A DNA stretch of 64,000 nt. Origin: Tessaracoccus bendigoensis DSM 12906. Its GTDB lineage: Bacteria; Actinomycetota; Actinomycetes; Propionibacteriales; Propionibacteriaceae. Under the pieces are notes generated by a model. It did no database searches and had not been told where the DNA came from. It worked only from the letters and a program-made list of their open reading frames with translations. Of the stretch, positions 23,164 to 37,537 are shown piece after piece (positions within the stretch are counted from its first letter, which is position 1; each line of letters opens with the position of its first letter). The stretch lies in assembly GCF_900141915.1 (NCBI RefSeq), contig NZ_FQZG01000005.1, forward strand, positions 1 to 64,000, in the 5' to 3' direction. A program made the position numbers and the translations under genes.

Positions 23164-23179
23164 CCGAACACGGGTTCGG
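23164..23179. promoter_or_regulatory. Possible LexA box in the mraZ-moxR gap
   Basis: CCGAAC-ACGG-GTTCGG has the exact CGAAC-N4-GTTCG core of the actinobacterial/Firmicute SOS box, though the fourth spacer base (G) departs from the RNRY consensus. It lies where the -35 of the moxR promoter would be (-10 TAGGCT at 23188). Confidence 0.4.
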
Positions 23180-25428: not shown

Positions 25429-27599
25429 AATTCACACACCATCCGTTCTCCAGCCTGCTGATCGCAGTGGCCGTCTGGCTCTCGCTGCTTCCGCTGGCCC
25501 CACTCATCGAGCCCTTGGCCTACAGCATCGAAAGCGTGCCACTGCTCGCGGCCGCGGCGCTGATCGGGCTGATCCTCGCCCGGATGCGCGCTCCCCGCGT
25601 CCTGACCCTGGTGGCGCAGGTGATCGCCCTGCTCGGGGTCCTCCTCTGGCGGGGGCTGACCCTCGCCGGGCCGGGCGACCCGGCCGGGTCACTCAGGACG
25701 CTGACGCTCGACGGGATAGAAGCCATCCGGTCGCAGGCCGCACCGCTGACCGCGACACCCGGGACAATCTGGCTCTGCCTGCTCCTGGTCACGCTGCTCA
25801 TCATCGTGGTCGAACTGCTTGTCAACGTCCTGGAACAACCGGGCTGGTCGATCGCGCCGCTCTCGTTGTCGTTCGGGATCTCCGCCGTGATCCTGCGCGA
25901 CGACCTACCCCTCTTCGACCTCGTCCCCGTGATCGGCGCCTACACGATCGTGCTCCTGAGCGTCGCGGGGGTGGGCCCGACCACCGGCCGGGCCTCGCGG
26001 CAGAGCCCGTTCCATATTTCGAGGGTCATGACCGGTCTCGGGTTGGCCTCCATCGCCGTGGCGGTCTCACTGTTGGTCAGCCCGCTGGTCCCCCTTGGCC
26101 CCAAGCAGCCGTGGAACTCGGGCACGGACGGGCCGATCCAACTCAGCGACCCACTGGTGCGGCTCGACCAGGACCTGCGACGTCCAGCCGACACACCGGT
26201 GTTGACGTACCGGCCGAGCACCGGTGAGCCGACCTACCTCCGCACCGTCGCGCTTTCGAGCGTCACGGCCGACGGTGCCCGGTTGGTGCCCATGCAGTTG
26301 AACAGGTTCGGGCTGCGTGACCTCGATGCCCCTCCCGGCACCGAAGTGACGGTGGAGACACAGATGGCCGACGTGCCTTCCGAGTACCTGCCGGTGCCGT
26401 TCGCCGTCACCGACATCGATGCGGCCGGGCTATGGTCGTATGATCCTGCGACCCTGACCGTCGTGGCGGCAGGCGAAGACCGCACCGAGCAGACCCGCAA
26501 CCTCAGTTACACGGCCCAGGCGGTCATGCCCAACCCGTCGAGGGAACAGATCGAGGCAGCGGAGGCCGGAAGCGGGCTCGACCCCGTATTGTCGGAGGTG
26601 CCCTCGGAACTCTCTCCTGAGGTCGCCACCCTCACCGCCGATGTCGTCGGGGACGCGGTGACCGCGGGGCAGCAGGCGCTCGCGATCCAGTCGTTCCTGC
26701 GCTCCGACGAGTTCACCTACTCGCTGGACGCGCCGAGTTCGGCCGGCAGTTCCGTCATCGACGCCTTCCTACTGTCCGACCGGTCCGGTTACTGCATCCA
26801 CTTCGCCACGGCCATGGTCACGATGGCCCGGATCCAGGGCATTCCCGCCCGGATGGCGGTCGGATTCACGCCCGGCGATTCGCTGGAGGACGGCAGCTTC
26901 GAGGTGACCTCGCACGACGCGCACGCGTGGCCGGAACTGTTCCTCGACGGCCTCGGCTGGGTGCCGTTCGAACCGACTCCCGCTTTCGCGGGCAATCCCG
27001 GATACACCGACCCGGCCGCCCAGCCTTCCGCCGAGCCGTCCCAGGAACCCTCTCCGTCTGTGCCTCCGGCGTCGTCGCAACCGACGGTCGCCCCACCCAG
27101 CCCGACGGCAACCCCCACCGCCCCTGCCACATCCTCCGGGGGAGGCGGCGCCGGGCTCGGGATCGGCCTTGGAATCGTGTTGCTGATCGGGCTCGCCTTC
27201 GCGCCTGCCCTGGTGCGGTTGGGCCAGCGACGCGTGCGCCTGCGCGGTGGGGTGTCGTCGGCTGAGGCCGCCGACGGCGCCTGGAACGAGACGCTGGCCA
27301 CCCTGCGCGACCACGGCATGACGTGGCCCGGAGGGTCCCCCGTCCCCGGGGCCTTGGCGCTTTCCGAGGATCTTCCCGACGAGGCTGCAGAGACACTGGC
27401 AGGGATCGCCCACACAGTGGAGCTCAGTCGCTACTCACGCGAAGGGGCGGTGACCGGTGGACTAGCCGGACAGGTCCGGGCCCTGCGTGGCACCCTGTGG
27501 GGTGTGGCCCCGTGGGGGCGGCGCCTCCGGGTAACCTTCGTCCCGCCGTCCGTCTTCACCCGATCGCCACGTAAGGGGACCCATGCCACATCCGATTGA
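25425..27599 (+). CDS. Membrane transglutaminase-like protein (TgpA/DUF3488 type)
   Basis: The 724-aa protein has five or more N-terminal membrane helices (about 10-215), a periplasmic-type transglutaminase core with the catalytic Cys in GYCIHFATAM and His in HDAHAWPELF followed by WVPFEPTP, a Pro/Ser/Thr linker (about 530-575), a further transmembrane helix (about 578-600) and a C-terminal DUF4129-like tail. The triad residues look intact. TgpA-like proteins are membrane-bound with an extracytoplasmic protease-like fold; the substrate is unknown. It is coupled to the DUF58 gene. Confidence 0.9.
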   Translation: MKFTHHPFSSLLIAVAVWLSLLPLAPLIEPLAYSIESVPLLAAAALIGLILARMRAPRVLTLVAQVIALLGVLLWRGLTLAGPGDPAGSLRTLTLDGIEAIRSQAAPLTATPGTIWLCLLLVTLLIIVVELLVNVLEQPGWSIAPLSLSFGISAVILRDDLPLFDLVPVIGAYTIVLLSVAGVGPTTGRASRQSPFHISRVMTGLGLASIAVAVSLLVSPLVPLGPKQPWNSGTDGPIQLSDPLVRLDQDLRRPADTPVLTYRPSTGEPTYLRTVALSSVTADGARLVPMQLNRFGLRDLDAPPGTEVTVETQMADVPSEYLPVPFAVTDIDAAGLWSYDPATLTVVAAGEDRTEQTRNLSYTAQAVMPNPSREQIEAAEAGSGLDPVLSEVPSELSPEVATLTADVVGDAVTAGQQALAIQSFLRSDEFTYSLDAPSSAGSSVIDAFLLSDRSGYCIHFATAMVTMARIQGIPARMAVGFTPGDSLEDGSFEVTSHDAHAWPELFLDGLGWVPFEPTPAFAGNPGYTDPAAQPSAEPSQEPSPSVPPASSQPTVAPPSPTATPTAPATSSGGGGAGLGIGLGIVLLIGLAFAPALVRLGQRRVRLRGGVSSAEAADGAWNETLATLRDHGMTWPGGSPVPGALALSEDLPDEAAETLAGIAHTVELSRYSREGAVTGGLAGQVRALRGTLWGVAPWGRRLRVTFVPPSVFTRSPRKGTHATSD

Positions 27600-27608
27600 C
27601 TGGGCGCA

Positions 27609-27614
27609 TAGAAT
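27609..27614 (+). promoter_or_regulatory. -10 hexamer of the DUF3040 gene
   Basis: TAGAAT lies 29 bases before the ATG at 27644, leaving room for a short leader with GAGGGAG. Confidence 0.45.
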
Positions 27615-27643
27615 GGGCTCAACAAGCACCCGAGGGAGTTGAG

Positions 27644-28039
27644 ATGGCCCTTTCTGAGCAGGAGCGCAAGCTGCTGGAGCAGCTTGAGGCGTCCCTTATG
27701 GCCGACGACCCTGGTCTAGCCGAGAAACTGAGCGGATCTACCGAGGTGCGCGTGCACCGCAGGCGAGCCGCGCTCGCCGGGTTGTGCTTCGTCATCGGCG
27801 TCGTGGTGCTCGTGGCTGGCGTGACCGTGCATCCGGTGGTCAGCGTCGTGGGCTTCCTCATCATGTTGGCCGCCGCACTCTTGGGCATCAACTCGTGGCG
27901 AAGGGTCGGCGACGACGGTGGCCAGCCGAGCAAGCCCCACCCGGCCCCGCCGAAGCCGAACCCGCCACCCTCGTCGGGCAGCGATTTCATGGAGAAGTTG
28001 GAGGAACGCTGGCGTCGGCGCCAGGACGGCGATAACTGA
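27644..28039 (+). CDS. DUF3040 membrane protein
   Basis: The 131-aa protein starts MALSEQERKLLEQLEASL, typical of DUF3040, with the DDPGLAEKL motif, two membrane helices (about 44-62 and 66-85) and a Pro/Lys-rich cytoplasmic tail. DUF3040 proteins are small actinobacterial membrane proteins of unknown function that are often found near the dcw cluster. The ATG at 27644 with GAGGGAG is chosen over the upstream open frame. Confidence 0.88.
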   Translation: MALSEQERKLLEQLEASLMADDPGLAEKLSGSTEVRVHRRRAALAGLCFVIGVVVLVAGVTVHPVVSVVGFLIMLAAALLGINSWRRVGDDGGQPSKPHPAPPKPNPPPSSGSDFMEKLEERWRRRQDGDN

Positions 28040-28272: not shown

Positions 28273-29460
28273 TCACCCCGCAGCGGTGAGCATCTCGCCA
28301 CGCCGCGTCAACCGAGCCCGCTGCACCGCCTGCGGGCCGAACCGAAGCACCGCCGCGTCGATCGCCTCCTCAGCGTCCTCCCAACCATGGGACGGCTCAT
28401 CCAGCACGGGCTGCCGATACGTCTGCGACTTCGGCACCAGCTTCTCGGCCCGGACCCCGACCCGTCGGATCCGGGCTCGTTGCAGCCCAAGCTTCTCGAA
28501 CAGCCTGAGCGCCTCGGCGTAGATGTCGTTGGTGCGGTCGGTGTAGGCCTTCAGCGTCCCGGTGCGGGTGATCGTCGTGAAGTCGGCGAACCTTACCGAA
28601 AGGGTCACGGTCTTACCGACCATCTCCTGCGCCCGCATCCGGCCGGCAGTGCGGTCTGCCATCCGCAGGATCTCGGTGACCACCAATGCCGGATCATCGG
28701 TGTCGCGGCTGAAGGTCTCCTGCGATCCGACACTGTGCTCTGAGGGCTCCTTCGCGAGCACCGAACGGTCGTCGCGACCCCAGGCGAGGTCGAACAGCAG
28801 CGCACCCTGCCCGTCGCCGAGTGCCCGCTGCAACGTAGGTCTCGATGTGTTGGCGAGGTCTCGAACCGTCGTGAGACCCAACCGGTGCAGCCTACCGGCG
28901 GTCGCCTCCCCCACCCCCCAGATCGCCTCCACCGGAAGCGGATGCAGGAAGGCGATGACTTCCTCCTCCTGCACCCTGACGAGCCCGTCGGGCTTGGCCT
29001 GCTTGGAGGCGAGCTTGGCGATGAACTTGCTGGGGCCGATGCCGACCGAGCAGGCGATGCCCTGCTCGTCCATCACCTGGGCCCGGAGCTCCTCCCCGAC
29101 CACGACCGGGTCGCCGCCCAGGCGCCGCAGCGCCGTGGTCAGATCGATGAACGCCTCGTCGATGGAAGCCATCTCCACCCGGTCGGTCATGGTGTCGAAG
29201 ATCTCAGCGACCCCCACCGAGACGGCTGAGTAATGGTCGAAATCCGGAGTCACCACCGCCGCCTGGGGACACAACCGCCGCGCCCTGCTCGAAGGCATGC
29301 CCGCGGTGATCCCGAACCGTCTGGCCGGATAGTTCGCCGACAACACCACCCCCCTGCTGGAACCGCCGACGAACATGGGCACTTCCCGCAGTTCAGGGTG
29401 GCGCGCCATCTCGACCGACGCGTAGAAGGCGTCCATGTCCACGTGTGCGATCACCGTCAC
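28273..29460 (-). CDS. dinB: DNA polymerase IV (Y family, DinB)
   Basis: The 395-aa product is a Y-family translesion polymerase. It shows VDMDAFYASVE (metal-binding Asp, about residues 7-17), the catalytic SIDEAFIDLTT motif, the helix-hairpin-helix IWGVGEATAGRLHRLGL and a little-finger domain (TVTLSVRFADFTTITR). The frame is open upstream into dnaE2, but the GTG at 29460 has GGAGGTGAGG before it and starts five bases after the dnaE2 stop. Its place as last gene of the DUF6504-HEPN-dnaE2-dinB set suggests it takes part in SOS mutagenesis. Confidence 0.95.
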   Translation of the reverse strand: MTVIAHVDMDAFYASVEMARHPELREVPMFVGGSSRGVVLSANYPARRFGITAGMPSSRARRLCPQAAVVTPDFDHYSAVSVGVAEIFDTMTDRVEMASIDEAFIDLTTALRRLGGDPVVVGEELRAQVMDEQGIACSVGIGPSKFIAKLASKQAKPDGLVRVQEEEVIAFLHPLPVEAIWGVGEATAGRLHRLGLTTVRDLANTSRPTLQRALGDGQGALLFDLAWGRDDRSVLAKEPSEHSVGSQETFSRDTDDPALVVTEILRMADRTAGRMRAQEMVGKTVTLSVRFADFTTITRTGTLKAYTDRTNDIYAEALRLFEKLGLQRARIRRVGVRAEKLVPKSQTYRQPVLDEPSHGWEDAEEAIDAAVLRFGPQAVQRARLTRRGEMLTAAG

Positions 29461-29464
29461 GGCC

Positions 29465-32400
29465 TCACCTCCCTGCGCTCCCGGGGCTGGAGTGCCACAG
29501 CTTGCGCGGTGCTTCCGCAGCTCCGGTGCCAGCGGGCTTGATGTCGGAGTAGGGCGACTGTTTGAAACCGCTGGCATGCACCAGCACTCGCCGCTGCCCC
29601 ATTCCGCCTGCACGGGTGTGGTTCTGCGGGTCTGGTGGCGGCTCGAAACCCTCGGGTGCGGGCTCCCCCTCCTCCGGCTCGGCAGCAGGATCCTGAACGG
29701 ACCGACTCGGCTCCTTCCAGGCACCGACCAGACAATAGCCTTCTGGCACATCGTCGAGGATCGCGGTTACGTCCGCGACGGCCTCATCCTCGGTAGCACC
29801 CTGGTTTAGGGCGGCCCGCCACGCCTCATCCAAGATGCCCAGATCCCAGGCTCCGGTGGCGCGGATCGAGATACCCCGCGGCCCGGTACGCCGGATCTTG
29901 CCCCGGACCAGCAGCATCCAGGATGAGAACACGGTGGATGCGTACGGCCCCTGCACGTCCTCGAAGAAGGTGGTGTCGACGGGGCCGGTCGAGTCATCGA
30001 GAGTCAGGAAGATCACACGCCGCCCAGAACGCACCGGTGGGGTCTGCGTCGCGACCTTTACTCCTGCGACCAACACGTCGGCCTGGTTGCGGTGCTGCAA
30101 CAGGACCCGGGAACTGGATGCACCGAGCGCGCGCAGCAGCGGCAGGTAGCGGCCCATGATGTGCTGGCTGGCGTCGAGCCCGAGGATCTCCAATTCGGCC
30201 TTGAGTCGTTCTTCGTCGTCCATTTCGGGCAGCCCGGTGACCCTGACGTCGGAGGTCGGTTCGTCGCCGTCCTCCTCGAAGTCGAGCGCGACCTGCACGG
30301 CCAGCGCGCGACGGTCGACCTGACAGCTCTGGGCGCGGGCGAGGTCGGCCGGGTCGTCCGTCGACACCTGACGTCTGCGCCCCTTCGCGCGCGCCGCGAC
30401 CCGTTCGTCGGCCCTGCTCGCCCGGTGCAGGTCGGCGAGCGCGAGCAGCAGGTCGCGTCTGGTCACCCGGCCGTGCCGGGCGACGGAGGTGCTTCCTCCG
30501 ATGCCGTAGATCCGGTCGAAGGCCCCGGCGAGGATGAGTCGCTCGACGACGGGCTCACTCACCCGGGCCCTTGCCCAGAAGTCGCTGAGCGAAACAAACG
30601 GTGCGCCCGCGACGATCCGCTCAATCTCGGCCTCCGAAATGCCCTTCACGTCTGCCAGGGACAACCGGATGCCCCAGCCGTCGACGTGCGGCAGCCCGTC
30701 CGTCGCCGACGGTGCCCCCATCGCGAAGTGTTCCGGCAGCCGCAGCTCTTCCTCGTCCATTTCCAGCCGTTCGGCACGGTACTGGCCAGAGCTGCGGTTG
30801 ACGTCGAGCCCCAGCACCGCGATCTCCATCCGCCTGGCTTCCTCCAGCAGCAGCCGCTTCGGATACATGCCGGGGTCGTGCGTCAGGATGCCGGAGAGGA
30901 AGTGGGCCGGGTAATGACGCTTCAGCCAGGCCGACTGGTAGGTGGGTAGCGCGAAGGCCGCCGCGTGTGCCTTGCAGAACCCGAAGGAGGCGAACGATTC
31001 GAGGATGAACCAGATCTGTTCGACCAGAGGCTCGGCATAGCCCCGTTCGTCCGCCTTACGTGCGAACCAGTCCTTCACCCTGGCCTGGCCGTCACGGTCA
31101 CCCAGCGCGCGGCGCACCTCGTCACCCTGTGCGAGGCTGCATCCTGTGACGGTGGCGATGATCTCGATGAGCTGTTCGTGGAAGACGACCACCCCGTAGG
31201 TCTGCTCGAGCGCCGGGATGAGGCTCTCGTGCAGATAGCTGGGCTGCGTCCAGCCTTGTCGACCTTCAAGGAACGGGGTGACCATGTCGGATTTGACCGG
31301 CCCGGGTCGGAACAAGGAGATGTCGACGATCAGGTCGTGGAAGTTCTCGGGCCCGAACTTGCCGACCAGTTCCCGCTGGCCGGGCGACTCGATCTGGAAG
31401 CAGCCGAGCGTGGCGCGGTGCGCGATCATGTCGTAGACGGCCGCGTCGTCGAACGGAGCGAGCGCGTCGATGTCCGGGGTTGGGCCCTCGGCCCCGGTTC
31501 GGCCGATCTCACCCAACGCATGTGCCATCGCCGACTGCATCCGGATGCCGAGCACGTCGAGCTTCAGCAGACCGAGGTCTTCCACGTCGTCCTTGTCGAA
31601 CTGGCTCATCGGATACCCGCTGAAGCTGGCTTCCAGGGGGGTGCGCTGCCCGAGCGACGAGTCGCTCAGAATGACGCCGCAGGGGTGCAACGCGATATGA
31701 CGAGGCAACCCGTCGAGCGACTCGACCAGACCGAACAGCAGTTCGAGGCGCTGCTCCCCCAGCCCAGCGGCACGCAGTTCGGGCAGGTCGCGCAGCGCGG
31801 CGCGGGCATCACGGGCCCGGATGTGCGGAAACGCCTTGGCCATCGCGTCGATCTCTACGGGGGGCAGGCTGAGCGCGGCGCCGACGTCGCGGACGGCATG
31901 GCGGACCCGGTACGTCTCGATCATGGCGACGCAGGCGACCCGCTGCCCGCCGAAGGTCGCCAGAATCTTGTCGTAGACCTCGGTGCGGCGGGCCGATTCG
32001 ACGTCCAGATCGATGTCGGGCAACGCCTGCCTGAGCGGGGAGAGGAAGCGCTCCATGATGAGGCCGTAGCGGATCGGGTCGACCCCTGAGACGCCGAGCG
32101 CGTAGTTGACCAGGCTACCCGCGCCAGAGCCGCGGGCGGCGCAACGGATACCCAGGCCCCGGATGAGGCCGACGACATCGGCGACGGTGAGGAAATACGA
32201 CTCGAACCCAAGCCTGCCGATCACGGCCAGTTCTTCGTCGAGCCGGTCGAACACCTCGCGGCCGGGGGACGCGTAGCGCTCGGAGACACCCGCCTCGCAG
32301 CGGGCCCGCAGCACCGACGGCGCCGCCTCGGGCGTGGTGCCGAGCGTTTCGAACTCCGGCAGCCGGATCTCACCCAGCCCGATGTCGCCGATCGGATCGA

Positions 32401-33280
32401 GCCGACAGCGCAGCGCGAGGCCGCGGGTGTCGCGCAGCAGGGAATCGGCGTCGGGTCGTCCCGCCAGCCGTGCCGCTTCTGCTGCTGCGACGCGCATGGC
32501 TTCGCCCGATTTGAGGTGGCCCTCGGCGTTACGCCGGTCGATGTTTCGCACGTCGAGCGGCACGAGGCGGCGCGCCGCGTCGAGCACGTCGACGGTGGCG
32601 CCCTGGCCTCGCTTGGCCATCCGCACCATGTTGGTCAGCACCACCGGCACCCCCATCGCGTCGGCCAGGTGGATGATGCCGCCGGCCTGGTGGGCTGAGG
32701 CGGGGCCGCGGCCGCCGGTGTGCTGGTTGGTGGCGGCCAGTACCAGGCCGGGCCCCAACTCGGAGCGCCACCGGCGGACTGCGCTCCTCGCGTCGTCGGG
32801 TCGACCGGCCGACACGAGCCCGCCGACCTCGGAATCCGCGCCGAGCAGGACGAACGCGTCGCGGCCTGCGCAGTGCTGCGCGATGGTTTCAAGCGTGACC
32901 ACCGGGTCGGAGCGTTCACCGTTCAACTGGGCGGCGGTGATCAGGGCACACAGCACCCCCCACCCCGCACGCGAGGAGGCCAACACGACGGCGCGGGGCA
33001 GCCGTTCGTCGCGCAGCTGGCCCCCGCGGGCCGCGGCCGGGCGACGCGCGGTGCGCCACCCGTCCGGCCGGACGGCGAGGTCGACGCCGACGATGGGCGC
33101 GATTCCGGTCCGTAGGCACGACTTCGCGAACCGGACGGCGCCGTAGAGGCCGCCGCGGTCGGTGATCGCCAGCGAGTCCATGCCGTGCGCTAGCGCCTCG
33201 GCCACCAACTCACCCGGGTGGGAGGCGCCGTACTGGAAGGAATAGCCGGAGGCGACCCTGAGGTGCGTGAACGGCTCCAT
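29465..33280 (-). CDS. dnaE2: Error-prone DNA polymerase DnaE2 (ImuC)
   Basis: The 1271-aa protein is a C-family polymerase of the DnaE2 type. The PHP domain is at the N-terminus (HLRVASGYSFQYGASHP, 6-22), the catalytic palm has PDIDLDVE (about 415-422), and the C-terminus has the DnaE2 ending VLVHASGFKQSPYSD ... RKLWHSSPG. DnaE2 performs damage-induced mutagenesis; in many bacteria it works with ImuA/ImuB, whose genes are not present here. Its ATG overlaps the HEPN gene stop as TAATG, and dinB follows after five bases. Confidence 0.96.
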   Translation of the reverse strand: MEPFTHLRVASGYSFQYGASHPGELVAEALAHGMDSLAITDRGGLYGAVRFAKSCLRTGIAPIVGVDLAVRPDGWRTARRPAAARGGQLRDERLPRAVVLASSRAGWGVLCALITAAQLNGERSDPVVTLETIAQHCAGRDAFVLLGADSEVGGLVSAGRPDDARSAVRRWRSELGPGLVLAATNQHTGGRGPASAHQAGGIIHLADAMGVPVVLTNMVRMAKRGQGATVDVLDAARRLVPLDVRNIDRRNAEGHLKSGEAMRVAAAEAARLAGRPDADSLLRDTRGLALRCRLDPIGDIGLGEIRLPEFETLGTTPEAAPSVLRARCEAGVSERYASPGREVFDRLDEELAVIGRLGFESYFLTVADVVGLIRGLGIRCAARGSGAGSLVNYALGVSGVDPIRYGLIMERFLSPLRQALPDIDLDVESARRTEVYDKILATFGGQRVACVAMIETYRVRHAVRDVGAALSLPPVEIDAMAKAFPHIRARDARAALRDLPELRAAGLGEQRLELLFGLVESLDGLPRHIALHPCGVILSDSSLGQRTPLEASFSGYPMSQFDKDDVEDLGLLKLDVLGIRMQSAMAHALGEIGRTGAEGPTPDIDALAPFDDAAVYDMIAHRATLGCFQIESPGQRELVGKFGPENFHDLIVDISLFRPGPVKSDMVTPFLEGRQGWTQPSYLHESLIPALEQTYGVVVFHEQLIEIIATVTGCSLAQGDEVRRALGDRDGQARVKDWFARKADERGYAEPLVEQIWFILESFASFGFCKAHAAAFALPTYQSAWLKRHYPAHFLSGILTHDPGMYPKRLLLEEARRMEIAVLGLDVNRSSGQYRAERLEMDEEELRLPEHFAMGAPSATDGLPHVDGWGIRLSLADVKGISEAEIERIVAGAPFVSLSDFWARARVSEPVVERLILAGAFDRIYGIGGSTSVARHGRVTRRDLLLALADLHRASRADERVAARAKGRRRQVSTDDPADLARAQSCQVDRRALAVQVALDFEEDGDEPTSDVRVTGLPEMDDEERLKAELEILGLDASQHIMGRYLPLLRALGASSSRVLLQHRNQADVLVAGVKVATQTPPVRSGRRVIFLTLDDSTGPVDTTFFEDVQGPYASTVFSSWMLLVRGKIRRTGPRGISIRATGAWDLGILDEAWRAALNQGATEDEAVADVTAILDDVPEGYCLVGAWKEPSRSVQDPAAEPEEGEPAPEGFEPPPDPQNHTRAGGMGQRRVLVHASGFKQSPYSDIKPAGTGAAEAPRKLWHSSPGSAGR

Positions 33281-33642
33281 TACCCGGCCTCCGCCAGGAT
33301 TTCCTCGCGTCTACGCAGCCAGCCGACGGCATCACCCATGAAGCCCTGGGCATCACGGATCAGATCGGCGGCGCCACGTTCGGAGACGAGGGCACCGGCC
33401 TGCACCGCGGCCACCGTCGGCGCCACGGCCGAGAAGAAGTCGGCCCACTCGGCGAGTTCGGGGGCAGCCGAGGTGAGCAGCCTCCAGACGTCGGAGCGCC
33501 CCCGCGCCCGGCCGGGAGCCGCCGCGATCACCGCGAGAGCCGCCTGTTGGGCCGACTGGTAGGCGCCGACGAAGCGGGCTGCGGGAGGCTCAGCCAATTC
33601 GGCCTCCAAAATCAGCCGTCGGCTGTAGGTGAGGTCGATCAT
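33280..33642 (-). CDS. HEPN-domain protein, SAV_6107 type
   Basis: This 120-aa all-helical protein fits the SAV_6107-type HEPN family: SRRLILEAELAEPPAARFVG, YQSAQQAALAV and a central segment with VWRLLTSAAPELAEWADFF. HEPN domains are often RNases or RNA-binding helices, but the canonical R-x4-6-H motif is not evident in this sequence, so catalysis is doubtful. Starts and stops overlap both neighbours (TGATG with DUF6504 and TAATG with dnaE2), so it is made together with the polymerase. The open frame extends upstream, but the ATG at 33642 is the natural start. Its role is unknown. Confidence 0.78.
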   Translation of the reverse strand: MIDLTYSRRLILEAELAEPPAARFVGAYQSAQQAALAVIAAAPGRARGRSDVWRLLTSAAPELAEWADFFSAVAPTVAAVQAGALVSERGAADLIRDAQGFMGDAVGWLRRREEILAEAG

Positions 33643-33944
33643 CAGTCGAGCACCGCCTGGAGCACCCAGTCTTCGGCGTTGACGGTGCGGGCCAGTTCGT
33701 AGACCCCGCGCTGCCTGCCGTTGCCGGCCTCGACACGCCACACTTCTCGTTCGGCCAGCGGATCGGGCTCGACATCGTCGACGGCATCTCCGCGCAGTGC
33801 GCGGGCCTGACTCCCCGACCACCAGGGTGTGGCGCGGCTCCAGCGGCCCTGGATCTCCTTGACCAGCAGCAGCCGGTCGCGCCAGATGAACTGGCGTGGC
33901 TCTTCGGTGAAGAGCACGTGGATGGGTTCGTCATAGGTGCGCAC
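33642..33944 (-). CDS. DUF6504-like small protein, first gene of the dnaE2 operon
   Basis: The 100-aa product contains FIWRDRLLLVKEIQGRWSR, a WW pair and YELAR...EDWVLQAVLD, which I recognise as the DUF6504 pattern found near Y-family and DnaE2 polymerases in actinobacteria. The GTG at 33944 has GGAGG six bases upstream. It begins a chain of four genes joined by 1-base overlaps or very short gaps. A consensus LexA box lies about 180 bases upstream. Its biochemical function is unknown; the family assignment is from memory of the motif. Confidence 0.72.
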   Translation of the reverse strand: MRTYDEPIHVLFTEEPRQFIWRDRLLLVKEIQGRWSRATPWWSGSQARALRGDAVDDVEPDPLAEREVWRVEAGNGRQRGVYELARTVNAEDWVLQAVLD

Positions 33945-34120
33945 GGTGGCCTCCGAGATCGTCCGACTACTTTGAAAACTGCTCATTCGACCCGTGCGCC
34001 GCGGCGGGTCGGCCGCGACGGGTGGACCGTGAGCCCCGGACCGGCGCAGGGGTCGAATCCACGCCGGGCCGGGGCGGCCCACCACCGAAATGCCTGTTCA
34101 AACCAGAGCTTCCGAACTAA

Positions 34121-34136
34121 TCGAACAGGCGTTCGG
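34121..34136. promoter_or_regulatory. LexA (SOS) box upstream of the DUF6504-HEPN-dnaE2-dinB operon
   Basis: TCGAAC-AGGC-GTTCGG matches the SOS box CGAAC-RNRY-GTTCG completely, with one flanking mismatch from TCGAAC-N4-GTTCGA. It starts nine bases downstream of a minus-strand TATAGT -10 hexamer, so LexA bound here would sit over the first transcribed bases and block the operon. Confidence 0.8.
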
Positions 34137-34145
34137 ACAAGAACC

Positions 34146-34176
34146 ACTATATGCCTTCCCTCCGACAAGACGTCAA
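34146..34176 (-). promoter_or_regulatory. Promoter of the SOS mutagenesis operon
   Basis: On the minus strand TTGACG (34171-34176) and TATAGT (34146-34151) are 19 bases apart, somewhat longer than ideal. Transcription would begin near 34139 and give a leader of about 195 bases before the DUF6504 GTG. A closer second promoter cannot be excluded. Confidence 0.55.
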
Positions 34177-34193: not shown

Positions 34194-35132
34194 ATGCTGA
34201 TCATCCGGGGGGCCACGCTGGCGGGCGTCGCGGCCGCCGCACGGTTGGCGAGGTTGGGCCACGAAGTGACCCTCGTCACCGACGGCGACCAGGTAGGAGG
34301 GGCGGGGGCGCTCCCCGACGTGATCGCCGTCCCGGCCGCTTGGCGGGACGTGTTCAAGAAGTCCGGCGGCCACCTGCAGGCTGAACTGAACCGCGTCCAC
34401 GTCGAGTTGGTCGAGGCCTTGCCGCGCGAATACGTCCTGGCGGACGGGTCGACCCTCCTCCTGCCGGGCGAGCGAGGTGCCCAGTACCGCGCGGTCGCCG
34501 AACGGTTCGGCGAGGCCGAGGCAGCCCGCTGGCGCGCTCTGGTCGACGACCTGGATGACCTGTGGCACGCGTACCGCCGCCACGCCCTCGAGGGCATCGC
34601 CCCGGTGGCCGATGCCCGGGACCGCGCCGCGCTGTGGCTCGACGTCACCGTCGGGCAGTTGGCAGAGCGGGTCGACGACCGTCTGGCGCCCATCGTGCTC
34701 GAGGCGGGCGGGTCGCCCGCCGCACCCGCCGTCGAAGCGCTCTCGCTGAGCGCCGAACGCAGGTTCGGGCGTTGGCGGTTGGTCGACGGGGATGGCGGTG
34801 CGCTGCCCGGCTCGCTGCTGCTCGACCTGCTGGCCCGCCGTATCGAGGAGCGTGGCGTCAGGCTGGTCGAGCGGTGCGAAAGCTCCCCCGACCTGGACGC
34901 GACCCTGCCCGACCGGCCGCTGCGTGCCGTCAGCGCGGAGGACTGGTTGACGCGGGTCCCGATCGTCGGTTCTGACGGCGTCGTGCGCGCCTCGGCCTGT
35001 TCACCGGCCGGCCCGGCCCCCTGGGCCGAGTTGGGCAGCGCGGCGCTTGCGGTCTACGAGTTGCACGAGCGGCTGACCGGCGAGGACTGCCGCCCCACCA
35101 ACGTCGCCTTCAAGCTGCCCCGGCTCGCCTGA
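34194..35132 (+). CDS. FAD/NAD(P)-binding-like protein of unknown function
   Basis: The 312-aa protein begins MLIIRGATLAGVAAAARLARLGHEVTLV, which looks like a dinucleotide-binding Rossmann fold of the phytoene-desaturase or amine-oxidase kind, but the GxGxxG glycines are replaced (GATLAGVAA). The protein is short for such an enzyme and lacks an obvious C-terminal FAD motif. I cannot assign a reaction. A leaderless -10 precedes the ATG. It is divergent from the dnaE2 operon across a 249-base gap containing the LexA box. Confidence 0.65.
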   Translation: MLIIRGATLAGVAAAARLARLGHEVTLVTDGDQVGGAGALPDVIAVPAAWRDVFKKSGGHLQAELNRVHVELVEALPREYVLADGSTLLLPGERGAQYRAVAERFGEAEAARWRALVDDLDDLWHAYRRHALEGIAPVADARDRAALWLDVTVGQLAERVDDRLAPIVLEAGGSPAAPAVEALSLSAERRFGRWRLVDGDGGALPGSLLLDLLARRIEERGVRLVERCESSPDLDATLPDRPLRAVSAEDWLTRVPIVGSDGVVRASACSPAGPAPWAELGSAALAVYELHERLTGEDCRPTNVAFKLPRLA

Positions 35133-36849: not shown

Positions 36850-37117
36850 TGTTTCCTCCCACTCTGCCCTACCGCCTGACGCCGCCCCAAACCGGGGTCT
36901 ACATGGGCAGGTGCCCGTCGTTCCGGTGTGCGCGGGCAACCGGAGACCCGGTCGTCGGATGTCCCCCCGTCAGAGGGCGCAGCGAGCCGACCATGGAACT
37001 GGGATCGTGCACGGCTCGACAGACCCCGACGCCTGGGTGGGTGGTTTCAAACGCTGTCACCGGCGAGGATGTGCCGGGCGGGGAGATCCAACCGCACGAG
37101 GCCCTCCGAAAATCGAC
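36850..37117. other. Gene-free stretch upstream of the repeats
   Basis: No supported gene lies between the divergent DsbA-like and helicase genes. This part carries the DsbA-side promoter region and unremarkable GC-rich sequence; ORFs in it lack ribosome binding sites and continue through the downstream repeats. Confidence 0.5.
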
Positions 37118-37273
37118 CACTGGCCGATACTCAGCGCCAGACACACCAGAATCGACCACTGGCCGATTTTCGCGAGGCGGGCGAGGCCCGCAAGCCCCCT
37201 CACCCGACAAGCACTGGCCGATACTCAGCGCCAGACACACCAGAATCGACCACTGGCCGATTTTCGCGAGGCG
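37118..37273. repeat. Two identical 62-base direct repeats
   Basis: Copies at 37118-37179 and 37212-37273 are identical, separated by 32 bases. Each starts CACTGGCCGATACTCAGCGC and ends in a near-palindrome AATCGACCACTGGCCGATT followed by TTCGCGAGGCG. The same near-palindrome begins just before copy 1 at 37112. The TGGCCGATAC word also occurs in the 53.6-54.5 kb array. Confidence 0.85.
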
Positions 37274-37388
37274 ACCGGAGGCCCGGACACGAGCGCGAAC
37301 TGGGAGCGACCGGAGGCCCGGACACGAGCGCGAACTGGGAGCGACCGGAGGCTCGGACACGAGCGCGAACTGGGAGCGACCGGAGGCT
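37271..37388. repeat. 35-base tandem repeat, three full copies and one partial
   Basis: Units start at 37271, 37306 and 37341, with a partial at 37376. Each begins GCGACCGGAGGC and contains GGACACGAGCGCGAACTGGG. The third copy differs by one base. It abuts the second 62-base repeat. Because 35 is not a multiple of 3, a coding role is unlikely. Confidence 0.85.
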
Positions 37389-37537
37389 GAGGGCGGCCGG
37401 AGGCTGGAAGCGGGCATGACCCCAGCGCGAGCCAAGCGCCCAGACGACCTCGGTATCGCCCCCACTTTCAAAAGGGACCGGTTCCGGGCGTTCACCGAGA
37501 AGTAGTAAGCTTGACTGTCTGTCTCAACCGAGGATGA

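Follow-up and report, generated by a model that had tools for sequence, protein, structure and literature searches.

The ImuA-ImuB-DnaE2 mutasome requires ImuA and a fused ImuB, and its mycobacterial form combines DnaE2 with ImuA' and a fused ImuB under a LexA control that is documented in papers. A different arrangement has been predicted in print, in which DnaE2B works with RecA, a Y-family polymerase and an ImuB-C that stands alone (PMC12926913, PMC6511836). As described in the 2026 survey, this DnaE2B-[ImuB-C]-PolY-RecA module is restricted to Actinobacteria, with Tessaracoccus lapidicaptus as an example, and genomes with DnaE2B are without ImuA and ImuB (PMC12926913). Here we analyse an operon from Tessaracoccus bendigoensis DSM 12906 that most likely encodes a DnaE2B mutasome induced in the SOS response and containing a split ImuB; the core of this mutasome has already been predicted in print. 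Its likeness to the DnaE2B-[ImuB-C]-PolY-RecA module lies in a DnaE2B-type DnaE2, a probable stand-alone ImuB-C-like protein and an apparently active Y-family polymerase, in a genome of the actinobacterial Tessaracoccus/Arachnia group in which ImuA and ImuB were not found. Unlike the module as described in the main text of PMC12926913, the operon additionally carries a HEPN_SAV_6107 gene. With the mutasome core in print (PMC12926913, PMC6511836), this gene is the residual novelty: the word HEPN is absent from the main text of both surveys, and a literature search returned nothing on HEPN together with dnaE2.

The operon lies on the minus strand of the window, by which we mean the whole stretch of 64,000 nucleotides analysed. 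Its first gene (33642..33944) encodes a DUF6504 protein (PF20114), recognised by Pfam at 56.6 bits; the likely start is the GTG at 33944, which has GGAGG ahead of it, and the ATG at 33986 is a possible alternative. The second (33280..33642, start ATG 33642) encodes a HEPN_SAV_6107 protein of 120 aa (PF18726; 65.4 bits against a cut-off of 27.2). It is followed by dnaE2 (29465..33280, start ATG 33280), a C-family polymerase alpha subunit of 1271 aa according to Pfam and NCBIfam, and by a PolY/DinB-like gene (28273..29460) for an IMS Y-family polymerase, most likely starting with the GTG at 29460. The main Pfam domains of all four genes exceed the curated cut-offs, and all four are under purifying selection, with dN/dS values of 0.14-0.31 against the same-genus locus L095 over the domain stretches, that of HEPN being the highest (0.31). 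A preliminary description of this DNA had proposed four genes joined by 1-base overlaps or a tiny gap, and this is indeed how they are arranged: DUF6504 and HEPN overlap in TGATG, HEPN and dnaE2 overlap in TAATG, and polY begins 4 bases past the dnaE2 stop. The span of 33280-34176 given there contains the promoter, DUF6504 and HEPN, but the operon extends to 28273. The gene joins, together with the LexA box described below, suggest that the four genes are transcribed as a single operon.

Ahead of these genes, the minus strand reads as a -35-like hexamer TTGACG (34171..34176), a 19-base spacer and a -10-like hexamer TATAGT (34146..34151), and nine bases past the latter starts a LexA (SOS) box, CCGAACGCCTGTTCGA (34121..34136), so that the consensus box noted in the preliminary description is confirmed from the minus-strand sequence, at a promoter-like site. 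The strict core of the box, CGAAC-N4-GTTCG, occurs in 25 places of the 4.13-Mb genome versus 3 for the same pattern read backwards (both whole-genome counts), which is more than chance. Both lexA and recA, confirmed by Pfam, carry it: lexA has a box 36 bp upstream with a core identical to that of the operon, and recA has a strict-core box 137 bp upstream. Conservation was scored in 73 named DnaE2 loci, which remained after 7 of the 80 fetched had been dropped; the 80 rank highest among at least 587 relatives and are therefore a biased sample, and a few of them duplicate genomes that are counted under handle labels. Within 400 bp upstream, the core matches at 10/10 positions in 68 of the 73 loci and at 9/10 in the other 5, in agreement with the expectation that relatives would keep the box. 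Additionally, the core upstream of DUF6504 in 15 same-genus loci (L094-L108) matches at 10/10 in nine, 9/10 in five and 8/10 in one. That dnaE2 and dinB are plain neighbours beside a chance box, with no special module, is very improbable: further cores do occur in the window, some of them inside genes (23164, 31731, 34753), but a core of at least 9/10 upstream of every one of the 73 scored loci and a pattern common to lexA and recA contradict a chance box. By its conserved promoter box the operon is a predicted member of the LexA regulon, with LexA binding and induction predicted alike.

The box also sits 72 bp upstream of the probable start of a divergent gene, whose relatives are flavin amine-oxidase-like; therefore, LexA could touch both directions. 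Strict cores are found inside this divergent gene (34753-34768), inside dnaE2 (31731-31746) and, close to the division gene region, between minus-strand mraZ and a plus-strand gene for a MoxR-type AAA ATPase, both Pfam-confirmed (23164-23179). Short intergenic repeats with the frames ...DHWPIF... and ...NRPLADF... are present at about 36950-37450 of the window and in L157, with similar ones on another contig; judged by eye, they resemble a dispersed repeat.

In a quick tree of 20 rows, the window DnaE2 clusters with DnaE2 proteins of an Arthrobacter plasmid, Nonomuraea, Streptacidiphilus and two Streptomyces-like genomes, and this clade stands apart, with support of 100, from four imu-linked or imu-bearing DnaE2 proteins. 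Going by the description in that survey, the clade would correspond to the DnaE2B of PMC12926913. The operon resembles Streptomyces dnaE2-dinP (PMC9380542), the DnaE2B-iPolY-RecA of PMC12926913, in its DnaE2B clade, in its LexA boxes, in the Y-family partner that adjoins dnaE2 and in the reported presence, in S. venezuelae, of an intragenic LexA site in dnaE2 (PMC9380542). It differs in that the Streptomyces PolY is described as inactive and ImuB-C as absent (PMC9380542, PMC12926913), and in that HEPN and dnaE2 are about 0.5 Mb apart in two Streptomyces-like genomes (G193 and G128). On the Arthrobacter plasmid pYA7-1a (L255), DUF6504 lies directly before a DnaE2B-type polymerase gene, as in the window, but the 15-kb stretch there has neither a HEPN nor a PolY match. 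This plasmid is typed as conjugative, and its DUF6504-dnaE pair adjoins an SOS response-associated peptidase gene.

The preliminary description regarded both small proteins as unexplained, which probably no longer holds for the first of them. The AlphaFold2 model of DUF6504 is mainly beta, with six strands (pLDDT 87.7), in line with the barrel as which ImuB-C is described (PMC12926913). A profile comparison with ImuB C-termini gives a weak match, collinear to the last residue (pairwise E 6e-4, probability 11.5%), and the reversed, mid-ImuB and HEPN controls give no alignment. One Rhodanobacter ImuB shows no DUF6504 (PF20114) match at 1e-3, a sequence search for solved relatives returned none that was credible (best E 0.17), a literature search yielded nothing on DUF6504, and neither that word nor HEPN occurs in the main text of PMC12926913. 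From its sequence and model, DUF6504 is probably a stand-alone ImuB-C part, and ImuB would therefore be split and not simply absent. The PolY gene encodes a partner whose catalytic motifs appear intact, with DMDAF (DxD) and SIDEA (SxDE) present, as expected of the normal-looking DinB noted earlier; SxDE was found by pattern in 107 of 117 PolY reading frames, a set preselected by DxD that includes the window and duplicates. The conserved C-terminal tail of PolY bears a resemblance, judged by eye, to a RecA-NT motif; a first pattern matched 0/117 tails and a second 86/121. Two simple scoring tests gave no significant support for the motif: 291 of 2000 shuffles scored as well as the tail, and the RecA N-terminus was only the fourth-best window in the tail score.

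The genome, a draft assembly of 158 contigs with a completeness of 100, contains one DUF6504 and only two Y-family genes, each of which has complete IMS and IMS_C domains. No ImuB was found in it by a Y-family family search combined with Pfam domains, and the same family search recovered the ImuB class at 50.6-61.0 bits in 7/7 mycobacterium-like genomes. Likewise, no ImuA' was detected at E 0.1 with a profile built from ten ImuA' proteins, for which the reading frames directly upstream of imuB were used; this profile matched 9/9 control genomes, six of them outside the profile; a search with Pfam RecA (PF00154) is not a valid test for ImuA', because this model misses the actinobacterial protein. 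The second Y-family gene was considered DinX-like by eye, and this was set aside; Pfam detects no Tudor-type tail on it. A check for imuA and imuB elsewhere in the genome, suggested in the preliminary description, thus found neither, with positive controls working. The ImuA and fused ImuB required by the ImuA-ImuB-DnaE2 mutasome are not seen in this genome. With the mycobacterial mutasome the operon shares DnaE2, probably an ImuB-C-like domain and, as predicted from the box, LexA control, whereas here no ImuA' was detected and ImuB seems to be split. The earlier proposal is supported in part, namely in the conserved SOS box, the operon-like arrangement, the failure to find imuA' and imuB and an alternative DnaE2 module. 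Such a module had already been predicted in print, and a complex of the four products would likewise be a prediction.

The second small protein remains unaccounted for. The AlphaFold2 model of HEPN is all-helical, with five helices (pLDDT 94.9), and no credible solved relative emerged from a sequence search (best E 0.2). Conserved sites of the family include R23, E65, W66, R89, D92, D93 and R96; the window protein has Y instead of H at position 28, G instead of E at position 90 and A instead of D at position 92. Two small overlapping genes, one of them from a superfamily that includes RNase toxins (PMC3710099), could suggest that DUF6504 and HEPN act as a toxin-antitoxin-like pair whose RNase is HEPN, and an R-x4-H stretch is in fact common among HEPN_SAV_6107 relatives, with H in 54 of 62 aligned, as judged by sequence alignment. 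We regard this as highly unlikely. The survey of the superfamily lists SAV_6107 as a family lacking the catalytic motif (PMC3710099), and the conserved catalytic Rx4-6H of HEPN RNases is missing from the window protein, which has R-x4-Y, a Tyr in place of the His, and two further conserved sites altered. Moreover, a pair is hard to reconcile with 33 of 196 genomes carrying HEPN only and 23 carrying DUF6504 only, and a toxin with a best PADLOC match at E 0.014. A role for HEPN as a defence gene was also rejected, with no PHROG match and that PADLOC match being marginal. A plasmid search gave no match to the window HEPN at E 0.01.

The distribution of HEPN links it to DUF6504 and dnaE2, and also extends beyond them. 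In a set of 196 genomes from the order, to which that of the window belongs, 120 carry HEPN and 110 carry DUF6504, with both in 87, DUF6504 only in 23, HEPN only in 33 and neither in 53 (odds ratio 6.1, kinship ignored). In all 87 genomes with both, the two domain matches share a contig and are separated by less than 750 bp, with a median of 106. Across the phylum, HEPN is matched in 36 of 396 genomes, and in 26 of these the match exceeds the cut-off. Of the 26, 21 score at least 65 bits and all belong to the class of the window; the other 5, which fall outside it, reach 27.8-32.6 bits. Beside dnaE2, DUF6504 occurs in 69 and HEPN in 68 of the 74 named loci whose upstream sequence was long enough for scoring (6 of the 80 having been dropped), and 64 of the 69 with DUF6504 and DnaE2 also have HEPN; in L189 the DUF6504-HEPN pair is inverted. 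Twenty-five mapped loci (one genome counted twice, as L105 and L176) have DUF6504 and DnaE2 without HEPN, the two genes being separated by only 2-35 bp in 20 of them. On a DnaE2 tree of 39 rows, HEPN must have switched between presence and absence 9 times, with at least 8 of these switches on well-supported branches, gains and losses being undistinguished in this count. We read these changes mainly as losses; either way, patchy loss or gain argues that HEPN is accessory. Two loci of family f77 (L128 and L129) have the DUF6504-HEPN pair and a 10/10 box core with no dnaE2 or polY match in the 15-kb stretch, and among the matches listed 37 f77 genomes have both DUF6504 and HEPN.

Where dnaE2 is absent, HEPN occupies the same gene neighbourhood, which comprises a DUF3040 gene, a methyltransferase gene and, in some genomes, mraZ nearby (in the window, DUF3040 lies at 27596-28039 and mraZ about 10 kb away); therefore, the neighbourhood may overstate the link between HEPN and dnaE2. 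It is conceivable, though on balance we do not favour it, that HEPN_SAV_6107 serves the SOS response independently, for instance in a checkpoint or in a function directed at RNA, and shares only the LexA-controlled promoter with the polymerase genes, the mutasome genes having joined an older LexA-HEPN unit beside mraZ/dcw. The occurrence in this neighbourhood without dnaE2 speaks for this, as does the absence of HEPN where the mutasome stays. So does the box at HEPN loci without DUF6504 and dnaE2: within 400 bp upstream it reaches at least 9/10 in 14 of 18 such loci and 10/10 in 8, compared with 67 and 1, respectively, of 2245 random 400-bp windows from the same loci. Seven of ten HEPN loci in the Streptomyces-like family f4 read CGAAC-N4-GATCG, in keeping with the LexA consensus tCGAAC-N4-GNNCGa of S. 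venezuelae (PMC9380542). The family is also present in C. glutamicum, as a search control showed. There, going by gene order, the HEPN gene may be cg2381, which lies near mraZ. A gene of unassigned function, cg2381 belongs to the LexA regulon, and its ciprofloxacin M value of 3.86 equals that of recA (PMC5055667). If cg2381 is the HEPN gene, this induction would further favour independence.

Full independence is harder to square with the adjacency of HEPN to DUF6504 in 87/87 genomes with both, and with G204 (L137), where the HEPN match ends 63 bp before that of imuA', with imuB and a gene for DnaE2A coming next, a mutasome of the canonical type; HEPN has therefore met two different DnaE2 modules. 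Furthermore, by a reading of the hit lists, 17 of 18 queried HEPN genomes without the operon encode another alpha subunit, of the DnaE2-like kind, at a different place, but the same is true of 3 of the 7 queried genomes with neither HEPN nor DUF6504. A broader reading, for which the chances appear nearly even but slightly adverse, is that HEPN_SAV_6107 is an unrecognised core actinobacterial SOS protein, a helical factor under LexA control that several orders have retained. On this reading its targets would be error-prone polymerases, and its gene would have come to lie in one run with those of at least two DnaE2 modules, DnaE2B with a split ImuB and DnaE2A with ImuA' and ImuB.

Taken as a whole, we consider it fairly likely that the operon specifies a LexA-controlled DnaE2B split-ImuB mutasome with an accessory HEPN, in which LexA binding, the protein contacts and the role of HEPN are inferred. 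LexA bound over the expected transcription start would keep the promoter shut, and RecA-triggered cleavage of LexA would open it. HEPN_SAV_6107, which in other actinobacteria appears to be SOS-controlled without DUF6504 and dnaE2 partners, would be an additional helical SOS protein, probably without enzymatic activity, that is expressed together with the mutasome and plays an accessory or modulating part; we read it as an accessory SOS protein and not as an essential mutasome subunit. DnaE2 systems drive damage-induced mutation, and SOS control of the predicted DnaE2B split-ImuB module gains support from the box kept in 73 named loci. The HEPN gene may prove to be a missing component of this module or else a new effector of the SOS response, and it is open to direct tests in harmless genera.
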